Shown piece after piece: positions 30,796 through 42,966 of a DNA stretch of 49,458 nt. The DNA lies in IMG/VR virus record IMGVR_UViG_3300006854_000027, positions 1 to 49,458 of that record. One strand, written 5' to 3'. Numbering within the stretch: position 1 is the stretch's first letter; each line of letters begins with the position of its first letter. The notes under the pieces were generated by a model, which made no database searches, was not told the origin of the DNA, and was given only the letters and a program-made list of their open reading frames with translations. The position numbers and the translations under genes were made by a program. This DNA comes from a virus.

Positions 30796-30897
30796 TCAAA
30801 TTGTTTCGCAGCGGAAGATCATGCCGTATCCGCAGTGCGGACAGGTCTTCGCGCTCGACAGCATGCCTTTGCCACAGTTGGGGCAATTGATCACCAT
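30796..30897 (-). CDS. 33-residue double-CxxC zinc ribbon
   Basis: ATG at 30897 follows a full GGAGG on the minus strand with good spacing, and TGA is at 30796-30798. The peptide is MVINCPNCGKGM..TCPHCGYGMIF, two CPxCG knuckles 16 residues apart, which makes a minimal zinc ribbon. It lies between HNH and a gene on the other strand. It could regulate transcription or bind nucleic acid or protein; the function is unknown. Confidence 0.65.
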   Translation of the reverse strand: MVINCPNCGKGMLSSAKTCPHCGYGMIFRCETI

Positions 30898-30910
30898 TGG
30901 TGGGGCCTCC

Positions 30911-31306
30911 ATGGTTGCTTACAATTTCAAGCCGCGCTTTGCGCAGGCGATATTATCCGGCGAGAAGACGCAGACCATCCGCGCATTTCGCACGGCACGT
31001 CATGCCGCCGCTGGCGACACCATGCAGCTTTATTGCGGGATGCGCACCAAGCACGCGCGTCAATTGCTGGAGGTGATCTGCACGCGCAACGTCTCGTGCA
31101 ACATGGCAAGAAACCGCGTCAGCGTGGATGGGGTGCTGGTCGAGGACCTCGACGACTTCGCGCGCAAGGACGGTTTCCGCAATTGGCGCGAACTGATCGA
31201 TTTCTTTCTCGATATATACGAATTGCCGTTCAGTGGCCGGCTGATCTGCTGGAAACTTCCCGACGCCGCGTGTCATGCCGCGACGCCGGGAAGTCGGTCA
31301 CCATGA
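30911..31306 (+). CDS. ASCH-domain protein, 131 residues
   Basis: The N-terminus (YNFKPRFAQAILSGEKTQTIRAF, given here to residue 25 in two parts) is the typical ASCH opening with K-P and a G-x-K-x-x-x-R motif. ASCH domains have a PUA-like fold and bind RNA or modified nucleotides. I prefer ATG 30911; an earlier ATG at 30821 would translate the opposite strand of the zinc-ribbon gene. It is a lone plus-strand gene among leftward genes. Confidence 0.7.
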   Translation: MVAYNFKPRFAQAILSGEKTQTIRAFRTARHAAAGDTMQLYCGMRTKHARQLLEVICTRNVSCNMARNRVSVDGVLVEDLDDFARKDGFRNWRELIDFFLDIYELPFSGRLICWKLPDAACHAATPGSRSP

Positions 31307-33017: not shown

Positions 33018-34577
33018 ATGAAGTCGATGAACGAAGCGAACAATCTGCAAGCCCACTTTCGCGCCCGTCAAAAGCTGATCTGGATTGTCAGCAAGGAAGA
33101 GGCGCGGATCGAGCAATACATATTCGAGGCGGCAGCGCCGACGAAATACATCGCGCGTTGTTGGGACTTCGCGCAAGGCGTGACCGATATCAACGGCAAC
33201 GCCGAGCAGATCGGCGATGCCGACCCGATTGCCATGCTCACGACGATCAGCGAGCGCGGCAAAGCCGAAAGCAACAAGGAGCGCGGCGTGTGGATCATGC
33301 GCGATCTGCCGCCGCTGTTGCAGGGGCCGATTGGCATCCCGATTGTGCGGCGGCTGCGCAATTTCTGCCGCACCGTCGAGCCGCGCGATACGGCGCAAGT
33401 GATCGTGATCATATCGCCGGACGGCAACGTGCCGCCCGAGCTTGCCAACTCCGCCACCGTGATCGAGTGGCCCTTGCCGGATCGCGAGGAGATCGCCGAT
33501 CTCGTCGATGCGCTCATTGACGAGTACGAACTGACCGACATCGTGAAGAACGGGCAGCGCGACGCCGCCATCGACGCGGCGATTGGGCTGTCCGGCGAAG
33601 AGGCGCAAGCGTGCTTTGCCCGCTCGCTCGTGCAGCTGAAGACAATTGACGCGCAGACCGTCGCGCAAGAAAAGAAGCGTGTCATCGCCCGCGAACGGAT
33701 TCTTGAGTGGTTCGACCCGTTGCCGAACGGTTTAGACGCTGTCGGCGGGTTAGAGAATCTGAAAAGCTGGCTCAAGGGCCGTGCGGCAGCGTTCACGTCC
33801 GCCGCGCGTGCCTACGGATTGCCGCGACCGAAGGGCGCAATGCTCGTCGGCATTTCCGGGTGCGGCAAGTCGCTGACGGCAAAAGCCATCGCCACGGCGT
33901 GGGGATGCCCGCTGATCCGTGTCGATCTCGGCGCACTCAAGAGCAAATTCGTTGGCGAAAGCGAAGCGAATTTGCGCAAGGCGTTTGCGATCATCGAGGC
34001 GCTCGGCTTCTGCGTCGTGTGGTTCGACGAAGTGGAAAAGGCGTTGCAGGGTGCGACGAGCGGTAGCGCCGATGGCGGCGTGTCTTCCGACGCCATGGGT
34101 GCCGTGCTGACGTGGATGCAAGAGCGAAAGTCGGATGCGTTCGTCATCATGACGGCGAACGATGTGTCCGCACTGCCGCCCGAGTTTCTGCGCAAGGGCC
34201 GTTTCGACGAGCTTTGGTGGATCGATCTGCCCAATCAGACCGAGCGCGTCGAAGTGTTGAAGGCGTCCCTGCGCAAGCACGGACGCGACAAGACCGACAT
34301 CGATCATGTCAACGTCGCTCGCGCCTGTGAAAGCTTCACCGGCTCCGAGATCGACGCCATTGTGCCCGACGCGCTCTATGCCGCGTTCAATGACGGCGCG
34401 CGAGACATCAGCACCGACGACTTGATCGCTGCCGCGAAGACCGTCGTGCCGTTGAGTAAGACGGCAGAAAAGAAGATCGAGGCGATGCGCAAAGAGGCCC
34501 AAGGGCGCTTTCGCTTTGCCTCGAAATTTGAAGAAACGCGCGCCGAGAAAAAGACTCGCGCGCTCGATCTCGCCTGA
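33018..34577 (+). CDS. Ycf46-like AAA+ ATPase, 519 residues
   Basis: The C-terminal half is a full AAA+ module: Walker A GISGCGKS (278-285), Walker B VVWFDEVE (333-340), sensor 1 TAND (379-382) and an arginine finger in RKGRFDE (392-398). The N-terminal 200 residues follow the Ycf46 pattern (LIWIVSKEEARIEQYI; PLLQGPIGIPIVRRLRNF; VIEWPLPDREEI), a degenerate ATPase-like domain. Ycf46 proteins are AAA ATPases known from chloroplasts and bacteria, with poorly known roles. It probably forms a ring machine that remodels a protein partner. The shared GACAGGAGACT box precedes it. Confidence 0.85.
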   Translation: MKSMNEANNLQAHFRARQKLIWIVSKEEARIEQYIFEAAAPTKYIARCWDFAQGVTDINGNAEQIGDADPIAMLTTISERGKAESNKERGVWIMRDLPPLLQGPIGIPIVRRLRNFCRTVEPRDTAQVIVIISPDGNVPPELANSATVIEWPLPDREEIADLVDALIDEYELTDIVKNGQRDAAIDAAIGLSGEEAQACFARSLVQLKTIDAQTVAQEKKRVIARERILEWFDPLPNGLDAVGGLENLKSWLKGRAAAFTSAARAYGLPRPKGAMLVGISGCGKSLTAKAIATAWGCPLIRVDLGALKSKFVGESEANLRKAFAIIEALGFCVVWFDEVEKALQGATSGSADGGVSSDAMGAVLTWMQERKSDAFVIMTANDVSALPPEFLRKGRFDELWWIDLPNQTERVEVLKASLRKHGRDKTDIDHVNVARACESFTGSEIDAIVPDALYAAFNDGARDISTDDLIAAAKTVVPLSKTAEKKIEAMRKEAQGRFRFASKFEETRAEKKTRALDLA

Positions 34578-37281: not shown

Positions 37282-38022
37282 ATGACGAAAAAACTTACGT
37301 TCAAACATGTTGACGAAGGCACTGGCGTTGGATCGGACGCGATTCCCGATTTCCTGCGCCGAACTGAAACCGAGGCGCAAGCCGAGGCGCGGCGCAAGAA
37401 GCACGCGCCGAAGGACGACAGCAAAGGCTTGAAGGTGATCACCCCGCCCGATCCGAAGATCAGTGCGGCAATTGCGAAAGACTTTGCCGAGACGAAGAAA
37501 AAGGAAAAGCTCGCTGCCGTCAAAGCCGATGTTGAGCGGCTCAGAGACGGCAAGACTGATCCTTTCAAAAACATCAAAGCGTTCATCGAGAAAGGACAGG
37601 CCGCGCAGAAAGCGGTCGACAAGATCAACGCGGCGCGCGTCAAGGACGGCTTGCGCCCGTACACGCCGAACAAGTCAGCGAAGCCGCCGAAGAAAGCTGG
37701 CTCGCTCGTCGAGAAGGCGATCAAGGCGCGCGATGCGCTCGCCGTCAAGCAAGGCGTCACAGACTCGGCAAAACCGCCGAAGACCGCAAAGAAAGCGGCG
37801 GCAAAATCGGCACCCAAGAAAGGCAGTGCCGAGCGCAAGGCGAAATACGAGAAGCTGCTCGCCGCGCTCGCGCGCAAGAACGGCGTCGACAATGCCGAAC
37901 TGGCGAAGGTGCTGGGGCGGCGGCCAAGCTCGGCGTCAATGAAAACGATCTGCGAAAACCACGGCAAGAAGCTCAAGATCGTGAAGAAGGAAGGCGAGCC
38001 GACCCGCTACATGACAGCGTGA
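37282..38022 (+). CDS. Lys/Ala-rich DNA-binding-like protein, 246 residues
   Basis: Most of the protein is Lys-, Ala- and Pro-rich (AKPPKTAKKAAAKSAPKK), as in histone H1-like or nucleoid-binding tails. The C-terminal 60 residues (KYEKLLAALARKNGVDNAELAKVLG, then MKTICENHGKKL) look like a small winged-helix or HTH domain. It may bind DNA without strong sequence preference. It is the last gene before the terminator and uses the shared ribosome-binding box. Confidence 0.65.
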   Translation: MTKKLTFKHVDEGTGVGSDAIPDFLRRTETEAQAEARRKKHAPKDDSKGLKVITPPDPKISAAIAKDFAETKKKEKLAAVKADVERLRDGKTDPFKNIKAFIEKGQAAQKAVDKINAARVKDGLRPYTPNKSAKPPKKAGSLVEKAIKARDALAVKQGVTDSAKPPKTAKKAAAKSAPKKGSAERKAKYEKLLAALARKNGVDNAELAKVLGRRPSSASMKTICENHGKKLKIVKKEGEPTRYMTA

Positions 38023-39224
38023 TCTAAACTCAGGGGAGCGGCATTGCCGCTCCCCTTTTTTTGTCTTGAGCGCTGATACCCCTCGATCAGCTTGCGCGCA
38101 CCAGCCGCGTCCCCTGACGCTTTGCCGACGTACTCAAACACAGCGCAGGGGCGTCCGCCCATGTTCCAGCGCCCTTTTTCTTTTGTGAAATGCGAAGACT
38201 TCATGCCCGCAAGCGTCGACGTCCGGCCCATGACTGGCGAAAAGACCCCGGGCATTTTCGTCAGCGCCCACTTGTCCGAGCGATCATGCGCGCGGATGAA
38301 CGGCGGGTGCGCGGGGTAGTTTCTGAATCGATAGCCAAGCTGCGTGTAGTGGCTGGCGAGCGTGTCGAGCATGACGAAGGCCAGCCCAAGACCCTGATAA
38401 TCCGGCAGCGTGACGATGCGCGAGACGCCGCGAATGTTTTGCGCCGTTGGGTGCGGGCGATGCAGCACGCCGCAGAATACCGCTGGCTCGCCGTTGGCGA
38501 ACAGCACGTAGCACGCCGCGCCGCGGTGCAGCTCGTGGCTCAGATAGTGAAACGGAGCGAAAAGCTGCCAAGCCGCGTGATCGACCCGCGCGATCTCGAC
38601 AGCGATGTGAGGGCGTCGCCGAGGCGTCACCCATTTGAAGCCCATGGTGGCGGGTTCGAGGATCCAATCCGGCTGTAGCCACGGGATCACGTCGTAGTGG
38701 CACGTCGCGGCGACAAAGCGCCGCTCGTGCTTGCGCACGTATTTGGCCACCGCCAGGGCGGCGATGTGCGCCACTTGCCGATCAACGACCGAGGTGAACT
38801 CGTCGACGACGATGGGATCGGCGCTGCTCAAAATGCGCCGCGCCAGATCGACGCGAAACCTCTCGCCCGTCGACAGCACGGCGTAGGGCTTCATCCAGCT
38901 TGGGATCGTGTTGAAGCCGACCGCGCTGCAGGCGTCCGTGATCTGCTGTATGGACAGCTTGGCGTCGAAGTCGTCGATGACGGATTTGCGTTTCCACGCC
39001 GGTATTTTTTCCTTGCCGAACAGCGCGCGCGCGATACTCGACTTGCCGACACCGGACGGGCCGACGATCAGACCGACGTGCCATGGTTTTTCCTCGAGCG
39101 GTAGCTGGCCCTGCCATGACAGCGTGAGCTTGTCGCGCGCGGGCACGTCGAACATGCCGCACAGTTGCTTGACGCGCGGCGTCTCGTCGATGTCGGTTGC
39201 GACTACGAGATCAACGCTCGGCAT
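38007..39224 (-). CDS. ABC-type ATPase fused to a GNAT domain, Mom-like modification candidate, 405 residues
   Basis: Residues 1-200 form an ABC ATPase: Walker A GPSGVGKS (55-62), signature LSTGERFR (117-124), Walker B PIVVDEFTS (137-145) and an H-loop His (CHYD, 176). Residues 205-360 form a GNAT fold with the CoA-binding motif TLPDYQGLGLA (272-282) and conserved AWQLFAPFHYLSH. No membrane spans, so it is not a transporter. GNAT proteins of the Mom group modify adenine in phage DNA, and are reported beside ParB-like and ATPase domains. It overlaps ParB by 22 bases. Its last codons run through the terminator of the opposite operon. Confidence 0.8.
   Translation of the reverse strand: MPSVDLVVATDIDETPRVKQLCGMFDVPARDKLTLSWQGQLPLEEKPWHVGLIVGPSGVGKSSIARALFGKEKIPAWKRKSVIDDFDAKLSIQQITDACSAVGFNTIPSWMKPYAVLSTGERFRVDLARRILSSADPIVVDEFTSVVDRQVAHIAALAVAKYVRKHERRFVAATCHYDVIPWLQPDWILEPATMGFKWVTPRRRPHIAVEIARVDHAAWQLFAPFHYLSHELHRGAACYVLFANGEPAVFCGVLHRPHPTAQNIRGVSRIVTLPDYQGLGLAFVMLDTLASHYTQLGYRFRNYPAHPPFIRAHDRSDKWALTKMPGVFSPVMGRTSTLAGMKSSHFTKEKGRWNMGGRPCAVFEYVGKASGDAAGARKLIEGYQRSRQKKGSGNAAPLSLDHAVM
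38033..38062 (+). terminator. Strong Rho-independent terminator of the rightward operon
   Basis: A perfect 10-bp stem (GGGGAGCGGC at 38033-38042 and its complement at 38046-38055) with a 3-base loop is followed by seven T. It ends the 32.5-38.0 kb operon. On the minus strand it lies within the last codons of the ABC-GNAT gene and has no T run. Confidence 0.93.
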
Positions 39225-39730
39225 TTCAGGCCCTTTTTCTCGAACTGCGCGAGCAGATCGGCTTGCTGCTTTTCGCTGTCGCAGTCCACGATCACCGAAA
39301 ATTTCAGGCCGTCAAGCTGCGATTGCGCCGACATGTTGTCGAACAGCACGTCGAATTTCGCCTCGGAGAAACCGATCATGGCGAGATCGAAGCCGAGACT
39401 CTTGAGCTCCTTGATCTCGATCTTCAGCAGATTGTCGTCCCAGCCCGCGAGCAAGGCGACCTGATTATCGGCAATGCGGATCGCCTGCTTGTCTTCGGCT
39501 TTCAAGCCGCGCTGCACGACCACCGGATAGTCCTTGAACCCGGCTTGCAGCGCCGCCAGTCGCCGCCCGTGCCCCTTCAGGATCACGAATTTTTCGTCGA
39601 CGACAATGGGCTGATCGACGCCATATTTTTTCATGAGGCTGGCGAGCAGCGTAATCTGCTTTTCCGGATGCTTGCGCGCGTTGCGAATGTACGGCTTGAT
39701 CTTGCTGAGCGGCACCAGCGTCGTTTTCAT
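39203..39730 (-). CDS. ParB/Sulfiredoxin-like domain protein, 175 residues
   Basis: The N-terminal 90 residues show the ParB N-domain pattern: LVPLSKIKPYIRNARKH, GVDQPIVVDEKFVILKGHGRRLAA (GHGRR at 53-57) and DNQVALLAGWDD. This fold binds CTP or ATP and may act as a nuclease in some families. It is not in a ParA pair, so genome partition is unlikely. It overlaps the ABC-GNAT gene downstream and the small HTH gene upstream, so these three are made as one unit. Confidence 0.8.
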   Translation of the reverse strand: MKTTLVPLSKIKPYIRNARKHPEKQITLLASLMKKYGVDQPIVVDEKFVILKGHGRRLAALQAGFKDYPVVVQRGLKAEDKQAIRIADNQVALLAGWDDNLLKIEIKELKSLGFDLAMIGFSEAKFDVLFDNMSAQSQLDGLKFSVIVDCDSEKQQADLLAQFEKKGLKCRALIS

Positions 39731-39921
39731 GTCAGACCGCTATCCTCTGAAACGTAGGTCGTCCGCTCGCGCGCGCGTCTGCGGCTATTCAGCCCCTCGT
39801 GCAGAAAACGCTCGGCGTCGTGCTGCGGGATCTCCAGCACCTTCGCCATGCGCTCGGTGTCGACGCCGATATCCCACAGACGCATGACGGCTTCGACTAC
39901 TTTTTGCCGATCATAACTCAC
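39727..39921 (-). CDS. Small helical HTH-like protein, 64 residues, GTG start
   Basis: The sequence (AVMRLWDIGVDTERMAKVLEIPQHDAERFL, split as residues 11-25 and 26-40) looks like a helix-turn-helix. ATGA overlap with ParB links translation. The likely start is GTG at 39921. It may direct the downstream enzymes to DNA or be a regulator of the three-gene unit. Confidence 0.6.
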   Translation of the reverse strand: MSYDRQKVVEAVMRLWDIGVDTERMAKVLEIPQHDAERFLHEGLNSRRRARERTTYVSEDSGLT

Positions 39922-41339: not shown

Positions 41340-41920
41340 ACCGTTGCCCTCGTTGAAAGCAGACTATCGATTGACAAAAGTTCGCGCTTGTTCATGTACC
41401 AAGTGCCCGGCGTCAGACCGGTGCCGTCAGATTTGCTGGCGATCTTTTTTTGCTCGTAAAAATTTTGTTTTGATATCCAGCCTTCGAGCCAGCAATTTTG
41501 AAATTTGTAATCTTCATAGCTGACAGAAATCAAAACATCGAAACGTTTGCTTTGAAAAAGATGATTGACTGCCATCGACCAATAAAATTCTTTGCGTTGC
41601 GCGACGTTTGTTTTGACGTCGACGAGATATCGCGGCAATTTGATATCCGAATTGCCATCCCCACCAGTACCAGCAGACCAAAAGATCGCCGTCTCTGGGT
41701 CGAGATTAAAAAATATTGCAACCGCGACCTCGCCGATCTTGCCGGTTGATTGTCTAATCGGGTCGCGCTCAGCCCCCCACGGCCCAGAAACAGATCGCGA
41801 AAGCGAGCGCTGCCCTTCTTCACTCGCATACCAAGCGACAATTTCTTCGGCCCGATCAAATGCCCGTTTGACGTATCGCTGCGGGACGATGACGAGACGC
41901 CTATCGTCGTTGGTTCTCAT
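41336..41920 (-). CDS. PD-(D/E)XK nuclease-like protein, restriction candidate, 194 residues
   Basis: GKIGEVAVAIFF (Glu64), GNSDIKLPRYL (Asp92) and VDVKTN (Asp101, Lys103) fit the E...D...(D/E)xK order of type II restriction-like nucleases. The rest is mixed alpha/beta. The gene is A/T-richer than its neighbours and overlaps the MT-A70 methyltransferase gene by ATGA. A nuclease and a methyltransferase made together suggest a restriction-modification-like pair or a nuclease that senses the modification. Confidence 0.6.
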   Translation of the reverse strand: MRTNDDRRLVIVPQRYVKRAFDRAEEIVAWYASEEGQRSLSRSVSGPWGAERDPIRQSTGKIGEVAVAIFFNLDPETAIFWSAGTGGDGNSDIKLPRYLVDVKTNVAQRKEFYWSMAVNHLFQSKRFDVLISVSYEDYKFQNCWLEGWISKQNFYEQKKIASKSDGTGLTPGTWYMNKRELLSIDSLLSTRATV

Positions 41921-42966
41921 TCCGCTACCTCTAAGTCAGCTTCCGCGCCCCACGCATCCCATCCCGGTCGCGGCGGCCCACGCCGATTCAACTCGATCTT
42001 GGGCAGTGTCGGAAAATAGCGCTCGATGATCTCAGCAAATTTTTCCGGCTTGGCGGAATGCCGACCGCGTCTGACTCTTATGATTGATGAAAATTGTGTC
42101 CCCGGCGCTGGCGCTGGTACGCTGCCATGCGTGCCGACTAGCAAAAGCTCGTGCTGATTTATAAACCAGTATCCGGTGCCGGTGATCTCTTTGTCCCAAA
42201 TGCAATGCGAAACGTATTTGAAATCCCATGCCTTCATGACCTCTAATGCGTGCGGAAGCATCGGCACAATCGCCCATAGAAAAAGCACGCAATCTTTGGC
42301 GCTGATCGACGGCACGTCGCGCGCCTTGATTTCTTCCAATGTCGAGACGCCGTAATGTTCTGCCCCGGTTGCCAGCCCATCCCACGTCTCAAAAGCCCAT
42401 TCCGGGTCGGCGTAGATCACGCCGTATTTTTTTGTCGGCAACGCCTTTATTTTTTTTGCCGTGGCCCTTTCGATTGCGTTGCGTTTTTTAATTCGCGCCA
42501 GCCGCGAATCCATCCGCGATTGTCTGACCACCGCCTTGTCGCCTTCCGCCGATGCGACCGCCATTTTGATGAGCTTGCGCAAACGCTCATCCCACGCCTC
42601 GGGATCGTCGCGCCTCATGACCGCGAGCCCCTGCCAGCGGCTCGATTGCAATTTGCTGATCTTTAAGTCTGTGAGCTTTGTTTTTGCCAAAGTATCAACC
42701 CCATACTTTGGCACTTTGTATTGATTGCCTCTGTTACCACCTCTGCCTTCACGCTCCCCATTTTTTCGCATTTCGTACAGCAGCTCGCCCGCGCGCGTCT
42801 CTGCTTCAACGCGGATCGTCGTCGCTGGTGCGATCAACCGGGTATCTTTTGCCTGCTTGGCGTAAGCCTCGACCGCGACCGCCTTGTCGCGGATCGCCTT
42901 CACGTCGGGCATTTTGGTGGCAAGCGCTAAAGCGCGGATCGTCTGCTCATATTGCATGAGCTTCAT
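41917..42966 (-). CDS. MT-A70 adenine methyltransferase with N-terminal helical domain, 349 residues
   Basis: The C-terminal half is a clear MT-A70 domain: YGVIYADPEWAFETW with the catalytic DPEW (187-190, a variant of DPPW seen in phage members), VLFLWAIVPMLPHALEVM, ELLLVGTHGSVPAPAPGTQ and KIELNRRGPPRPGWDAWG. The N-terminal 140 residues are helical and charged, as in related phage genes. It should place a methyl group on N6 of adenine. GACAGGAGACT stands before the ATG. Low GC over this gene and the nuclease suggests a shared origin. Confidence 0.9.
   Translation of the reverse strand: MKLMQYEQTIRALALATKMPDVKAIRDKAVAVEAYAKQAKDTRLIAPATTIRVEAETRAGELLYEMRKNGEREGRGGNRGNQYKVPKYGVDTLAKTKLTDLKISKLQSSRWQGLAVMRRDDPEAWDERLRKLIKMAVASAEGDKAVVRQSRMDSRLARIKKRNAIERATAKKIKALPTKKYGVIYADPEWAFETWDGLATGAEHYGVSTLEEIKARDVPSISAKDCVLFLWAIVPMLPHALEVMKAWDFKYVSHCIWDKEITGTGYWFINQHELLLVGTHGSVPAPAPGTQFSSIIRVRRGRHSAKPEKFAEIIERYFPTLPKIELNRRGPPRPGWDAWGAEADLEVAE

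Follow-up and report, generated by a model that had tools for sequence, protein, structure and literature searches.

The tRNA and rRNA cytidine acetyltransferases TmcA and NAT10 unite an ATPase and a GNAT domain in one chain, the ATPase in both being of a non-ABC type, and TmcA acetylates the exocyclic amine of a base (N4 of cytidine). That GNAT domains linked to an ABC ATPase carry out some acyl modification of nucleobases, of an uncharacterised kind, was predicted by Iyer et al. in 2013, as recounted in PMC7824862. The DNA analysed in this work (the window) is a virus record consisting of a single 49,458-base IMG/VR entry, IMGVR_UViG_3300006854_000027, with genes that include those for a terminase large subunit, portal, major head, tape measure and endolysin, and on its minus strand the gene for an ABC-GNAT fusion follows and overlaps one for a ParB-like protein. 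By profile match, the fusion is a full-length member of the uncharacterised family phrog_11143. The reading to which we give the greater weight is that these genes probably form a phage DNA-base acylation cassette, in which ParB carries an ATP-dependent ABC-GNAT acyltransferase to the bases of the phage DNA. An earlier note on this DNA had joined three genes into one unit that may add an acyl-type group to phage bases; acyl-type modification remains the best-supported reading, and had already been predicted in print for ABC-GNAT, while the smallest gene, described there as encoding an HTH protein, falls outside the conserved unit.

The ABC-GNAT protein and its ParB partner

The three open reading frames (ORFs) do overlap on the minus strand as the earlier note described, and encode proteins of 64, 175 and 405 amino acids (aa), with an overlap of 4 nucleotides (nt) between the 64-aa ORF and parB and of 22 nt between parB and the ABC-GNAT gene. 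Their features are given below, fractions of 63 referring to relatives of the 405-aa protein and pLDDT to the predicted local distance difference test score of its AlphaFold (AF2) model.

38007..39224, minus strand: ABC ATPase fused to a GNAT acyltransferase, 405 aa, phrog_11143 family (ORF; phrog_11143 1.4e-93, residues 8-370; AF2 pLDDT 85.8)
39039..39062, minus strand: Walker A GPSGVGKS, residues 55-62 (G55, S57, G58, G60, K61 in 63/63)
38862..38876, minus strand: ABC signature LSTGE, residues 117-121 (L117, S118, G120 in 63/63)
38799..38813, minus strand: Walker B IVVDE, residues 138-142 (D141, E142 in 63/63)
38778..38792, minus strand: D-loop SVVDR, residues 145-149 (S145, D148, R149 in 63/63)
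38697..38699, minus strand: H-loop His176, in CHYD (63/63)
38127..38615, minus strand: GNAT domain, residues 204-366 (Acetyltransf_1 in 18/18 relatives; secondary structure of the model)
38538..38549, minus strand: HYLS motif, residues 226-229, candidate acceptor or active-site segment (Y227 63/63, H226 60/63)
38379..38396, minus strand: acyl-coenzyme A (acyl-CoA) pyrophosphate loop QGLGLA (QxxGxG/A), residues 277-282 (nearly invariant in 63 relatives; not in Mom)
39203..39730, minus strand: ParB-like protein, 175 aa (ORF; phrog_620 1.9e-42; ParB_N 5.4e-5)
39554..39574, minus strand: putative ParB motif of the cytidine triphosphate (CTP)-binding type, GHGRRLA (GxxRxxA), residues 53-59 (sequence)
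39203..39307, minus strand: ParB C-terminal mini-domain, residues 142-175, proposed ABC-GNAT adaptor (156/160 ABC-GNAT loci vs 0/160 controls; co-variation)
39203..39224, minus strand: 22-nt overlap of the ParB and ABC-GNAT genes (identical overlap in 39/80 independently fetched viral loci)
39727..39921, minus strand: 64-aa ORF with GTG start, upstream of parB, 4-nt overlap (no family match; no homologue at 185 loci)

The 405-aa protein matches ABC_tran and Acetyltransf_1, both above the Pfam cut-offs, and is covered over its full length by phrog_11143. The Walker A, signature, Walker B, D-loop and H-loop residues are invariant across the 63 relatives, as are F222, Y227, R269, P274, G278 and W319 in the GNAT half, and the acyl-CoA loop is conserved with few departures (Q277 60/63, G278 63/63, G280 60/63, G or A at position 282 in 61/63). 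In the AlphaFold model, which has a predicted template modelling score (pTM) of 0.77, an ABC ATPase is followed by a GNAT domain, and nothing resembles a membrane domain. The marks of an ABC transporter are thus missing, as the model holds ABC and GNAT domains only and the neighbouring genes scanned with Pfam and PHROG are not permeases; the protein is, as had been claimed, an ABC ATPase-GNAT fusion with all ABC motifs and no membrane part. Foldseek against the PDB ranks ABC ATPase domains first, and TmcA is the single non-ABC enzyme in its top 50 matches (3.9e-6). The earlier note had raised the prospect that the GNAT region might group with ribosomal or antibiotic acetyltransferases; its best solved relatives, obtained with a GNAT-only profile, are instead generic, scattered GNATs at E 8e-4 or weaker, and phmmer with the single GNAT sequence found no match in the PDB.

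The 175-aa protein is recognised by phrog_620 and, slightly under the curated Pfam cut-off, by ParB_N (PF02195), and with GHGRR at residues 53-57 it is the ParB-domain protein that the note had described; the longer GHGRRLA we take to belong to the GxxRxxA, CTP-binding-type motif class of ParB. The recurrence of ABC-GNAT is far beyond chance, with relatives encoded in 490 GTDB genome stretches (84,980 species genomes scanned) and in at least 597 IMG/VR stretches. A ParB-like ORF lies upstream of ABC-GNAT at 90 loci in a mixed set of 105 and at 76 of 80 further viral loci. The supposed small HTH protein found no convincing curated family, with nothing beyond GP68 at E 0.1 in Pfam and no match in PHROG or NCBIfam. 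As the ORFs at 185 ABC-GNAT loci likewise include no homologue of the 64-aa ORF, it was ruled out as a component, which leaves a conserved unit of two genes.

At its C-terminus ParB carries a mini-domain of ~35 residues with the consensus ViVeC.dE..Q.eLLeRL..EGlkCRaLi. A hidden Markov model (HMM) of it matches 78 loci in each of two sets of 80 ABC-GNAT loci, one viral and one from genomes, and none of 80 terminase control loci or 80 Mom loci; since ABC-GNAT loci supplied the sequences for the HMM, presence there holds by construction, and the informative half of this result is the absence from control ParBs. Seven terminase control loci do encode a ParB-like protein, none with the mini-domain, and several control ParBs run into a methyltransferase. 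An ORF of ~40-50 aa just upstream of ABC-GNAT encodes the mini-domain by itself in the Komp, Porphyromonas, Phocaeicola and faecal-phage loci, and in a Gemmataceae contig (L084) ParB, mini-domain and ABC-GNAT form one ORF, for which the AF2 model has a pTM of 0.37, too low to show docking. Across 135 pairs, mini-domain distances correlate with those of ABC-GNAT at r=0.61, against 0.17 for the mini-domain and its own ParB body and 0.32 for ParB body and ABC-GNAT, with physical linkage possibly feeding the first of these values, as the mini-domain is encoded right beside ABC-GNAT. The mini-domain thus varies together with ABC-GNAT rather than with the ParB body to which it is attached, and some phages have it as a separate ORF; read most simply, it would be a docking adaptor, travelling with ABC-GNAT while ParB bodies swap. 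Such an adaptor would show how ParB proteins, which are often found beside phage modification genes, bring enzymes to DNA.

The gene for the enzyme is not uniform among its relatives. The ABC and GNAT domains are split into two ORFs in phages of Lactococcus, Streptococcus, Oenococcus, Thomasclavelia and Enterococcus and in one IMG/VR contig (L001:4544-4710, L010:6463-6640, L012:4547-4710, L013:4541-4710, L023:4400-4560 and L024:4382-4580). At these loci the coding sequence of the first GNAT strand lies in the -1 frame ahead of the ABC stop codon, mostly with no start codon, and homopolymer or slippery-looking runs lie nearby (e.g. A AAA AAG), a pattern that suggests production of the fusion by programmed -1 frameshifting, as proposed for Orf24/25 of P335. 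On the Delftia plasmid pKV29 (L003:4968-5987), the ABC-GNAT frame has no normal N-terminus and is altered in the region before Walker A, with an intact formyltransferase gene alongside; this ABC-GNAT is probably a decayed copy.

Relation to Mom, genome position and companion genes

The GNAT domain had been likened in the earlier note to the Mom group, which modifies adenine in phage DNA, and this link was not upheld. Mom of phage Mu matches PF25680, for which no match was found anywhere in the window at E<=1, and hhalign against 14 Mom sequences, with the whole protein and with the GNAT domain alone, gave E values of 0.13-0.32 at a probability below 1%. The sole part aligned is a segment with HYLS here and HYS in Mom; in this insignificant alignment the Y and S of HYLS fall in similar register, and the E-L-x-R and F-A-D signatures of Mom are not recovered. 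The acyl-CoA motif QxxGxG/A is kept in ABC-GNAT and missing from Mom. As the Pfam and profile-profile comparisons were all negative, membership of the Mom family was excluded; on sequence grounds the GNAT domain is not a Mom homologue, and adenine as the target is without support. The unit may act on DNA bases as Mom does, though outside that family. In Microbacterium phage Appa (L144:1969-3121), ParB-like and Mom-like genes overlap by 8 nt, an arrangement that parallels the ParB and ABC-GNAT pair.

A connection with Mom of another kind is found in genome position. The Mu-like phages Komp_PAO1_1 and Porphyromonas phage008a have transposase and Gam genes. Their late region closes, after the tail genes, with genes for the mini-domain, ABC-GNAT and a formyltransferase-like protein, in the place that com and mom hold in Mu. 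Mu transposase genes were not found within the fragments L003, L026 and L027, and our statement on Mu-like phages is therefore confined to these two. The ABC-GNAT cassette is also frequently near terminase genes.

Formyltransferase or aspartate-decarboxylase genes recur downstream of the unit. Relatives of the formyltransferase were found in 28 records out of 50,697 from phages, and 13 of the 28 have ABC-GNAT as well (hypergeometric 2e-31, although co-occurrence statistics of this sort ignore shared ancestry, e.g. among Gordonia phages). All 12 of the Gordonia phage records with ABC-GNAT have a companion, this being a formyltransferase in 10 and a PanD-like decarboxylase in the two records of Jace, and PanD-like genes with their Gly-Ser self-cleavage site kept lie near ABC-GNAT in further, unrelated loci too. 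Formyl_trans_N proteins were seen beside ABC-GNAT at L018:5107-5724, L003:5978-6580 and L014:1814-2464 and in L016, L026 and L027. Read by eye, these keep His and Asp and have Gly or another residue at the position of what we take to be the usual formyltransferase catalytic Asn, and the donor or the reaction may accordingly differ from the usual one.

ASCH-domain genes are present, by Pfam's own model, on 16 of 50 ABC-GNAT viral contigs and on none of 50 terminase controls (Fisher 7e-6), the size of the effect being uncertain as the control set represents one terminase lineage. ASCH belongs to the PUA-like superfold, members of which read or process modified bases (PMC12707154). The window phage has an ASCH gene of its own, ~7 kb from the ABC-GNAT unit:

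30821..31306 (domain 30923-31219), plus strand: ASCH-domain protein, possible companion (PF04266 E 7.1e-5, 18.9 bits, just under cut-off; KTQTIR)

In the KTQTIR of this protein Lys, Thr and Arg are spaced as in the N4-acylcytosine amidohydrolase YqfB, and an acyl-cytosine amidohydrolase is thus a possible assignment for it. A YqfB-type deacylase role was also considered for the ASCH proteins that neighbour ABC-GNAT and found to be unsupported, for nearly all of these have KxxExR, not the KxxTxR triad, which is present only in the window's own, distant ASCH.

Proposed mechanism and its alternatives

We favour base modification on account of the mom position in Mu-like phages, the companion enzymes, the ASCH enrichment and the prediction already in print, and it is reasonable to postulate the following course of events. 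ParB, by way of ParB_N and its GxxRxxA motif, would bind or clamp phage DNA, and the mini-domain of ~35 aa at its C-terminus would hold ABC-GNAT. ABC ATPases are generally dimeric, and ABC-GNAT is probably likewise; its ABC domain would serve as a soluble ATP-driven dimer or clamp, not as a transporter, that opens or distorts the DNA, with ATP binding shutting the ABC domains on or around it such that a base is exposed. The GNAT domain would then take an acyl group off acyl-CoA and attach it to an exocyclic amine of the base, the kind of reaction that TmcA performs at N4 of cytidine. This group would be supplied or elaborated, in some phages, by an enzyme resembling formyltransferases or aspartate decarboxylase: PanD could provide beta-alanine or decarboxylate an attached aspartyl group, and a formyltransferase-like protein could formylate an attached amine, much as PurN acts on a glycyl amine. 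The resulting mark would shield the phage DNA from host nucleases. In this scheme the domains and conserved motifs, the coupling of the genes, the specificity of the mini-domain, the location in Mu-like phages and the accessory genes are observed, and the use of DNA as substrate, the base, its amine as acceptor, the group added, opening driven by ATP and protection are inferred. A more specific proposal, which we put forward only tentatively, is that both of two things hold: ParB is an exchangeable DNA clamp at which various base-modifying enzymes dock by way of swappable C-termini (the mini-domain for ABC-GNAT, a fused methyltransferase, or a zinc ribbon next to Mom), and ABC-GNAT places an acyl, aminoacyl or beta-alanyl group, sometimes formylated, on an exocyclic amine (for example cytosine N4) to give an undescribed hypermodified base.

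Several observations count against base acylation by this unit, among them the neglect of shared ancestry and the want of homology to Mom noted above. The papers searched yielded neither biochemistry nor sequencing that points to a modified base, the window contains neither a PanD nor a formyltransferase gene, and the overall superposition on TmcA is weak, with a template modelling (TM) score of 0.24. ABC-GNAT is encoded with no recognised upstream ParB in PX29, Vibrio vB_VmeM-32, Nonlabens P12024S and pT24. Last, Aeromonas phage PX29 (L017, L143) has both a Mom-like gene and its stand-alone ABC-GNAT, a pairing which may mean that the two are non-redundant; it hints at different targets and proves nothing.

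Were the GNAT domain to acetylate a protein instead (ParB, RNA polymerase or a host DNA-bound factor), ParB and the ABC domain would merely localise it on DNA. Protein-acetylating phage GNATs are known, such as Rac acting on RNA polymerase (cited in PMC7824862), and the generic GNATs that alone emerge from our profile search are mainly small-molecule or protein acetylators; we nevertheless consider a protein target unlikely, as it leaves the PanD and formyltransferase companions, the replacement at the mom position and the ASCH enrichment unexplained. Modification of tRNA or mRNA, in the manner of TmcA, strikes us as less likely still. Among the top PDB matches TmcA alone pairs an ATPase with a GNAT, the profile search has a weak match to NAT10 (E 0.11), and RNA enzymes also contain ASCH and PUA-like folds, yet the partner ParB comes from a DNA-binding family, the cassette often adjoins terminase genes, and the ATPase domain of TmcA is different, that of the window being of the ABC class by Pfam and Foldseek. 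ParB with a P-loop ATPase, often close to terminase, does recall partition logic, and the ABC ATPase of a partition, packaging or anti-defence module might work mechanically on DNA under regulation by the GNAT domain. ParA partners, however, are deviant Walker ATPases and not ABC proteins, the near-invariant GNAT motifs, including the acyl-CoA loop, appear to indicate catalysis, and the mini-domain that links ParB to ABC-GNAT does not occur in the terminase control loci; this explanation is to us the most improbable of those weighed here.

Base acylation by a ParB-borne ABC-GNAT, if true, would be among the commoner uncharacterised phage base-modification systems. The companion genes are concrete chemical clues, and isolated, sequenced carriers exist in the Gordonia phages Jace, of the PanD type, and Sisko, of the formyltransferase type, in Lactococcus P335 and in Leptospira LE3 and LE4. 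New relative to the portion of the published account consulted are the proposed adaptor domain and its co-variation, the occupation of the mom position, the companion enzymes and the control-tested ASCH association, and together they make the chemistry directly testable.

Other features of the window and comparison with known systems

Upstream of the unit and on the same strand lies a gene for an MT-A70 type adenine methyltransferase (41917-42966, PF05063 3e-16), and the window phage might thus methylate DNA too. Within the 3' end of the ABC-GNAT ORF there is a perfect hairpin, GGGAGCGGCATTGCCGCTCCC, at 38034-38054, which is likely a terminator between convergent genes; the final ~20 ABC-GNAT residues, encoded across it, are unconserved. 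A 519-aa AAA-type ATPase with no function assigned is encoded at 33018-34577 (phrog_8638, 2e-169).

Of the described systems, the closest is the predicted family of ABC ATPase-coupled GNATs (PMC7824862; phrog_11143), which has the same ABC and GNAT architecture; its named example, a protein of Tenacibaculum phage pT24, is homologous to that of the window. The account, in the part consulted, is a prediction with no partner, accessory enzymes or chemistry, and makes no mention there of the mini-domain, the mom position or the PanD, formyltransferase and ASCH genes. Mom of phage Mu shares with ABC-GNAT the GNAT fold and the late-region end occupied in Mu-like phages, and its HYS falls in similar register to HYLS, but it has neither the ATPase nor the acyl-CoA motif, and no significant homology to ABC-GNAT. 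In phage Appa, a ParB gene adjoins a Mom-like gene as one adjoins ABC-GNAT here, whereas that Mom-linked ParB ends in a zinc ribbon and not in the mini-domain. TmcA and NAT10 resemble the window's enzyme in domain layout and differ from it in their non-ABC ATPase, in acting on RNA substrates and in having no ParB partner. The phage ParB-methyltransferase fusions of phrog_498 have a related ParB body (7.1e-40) and likewise join ParB to a DNA-modifying enzyme; in these the methyltransferase follows ParB in the same chain, whereas the ParB of the window ends in a small putative adaptor for a separate ABC-GNAT.

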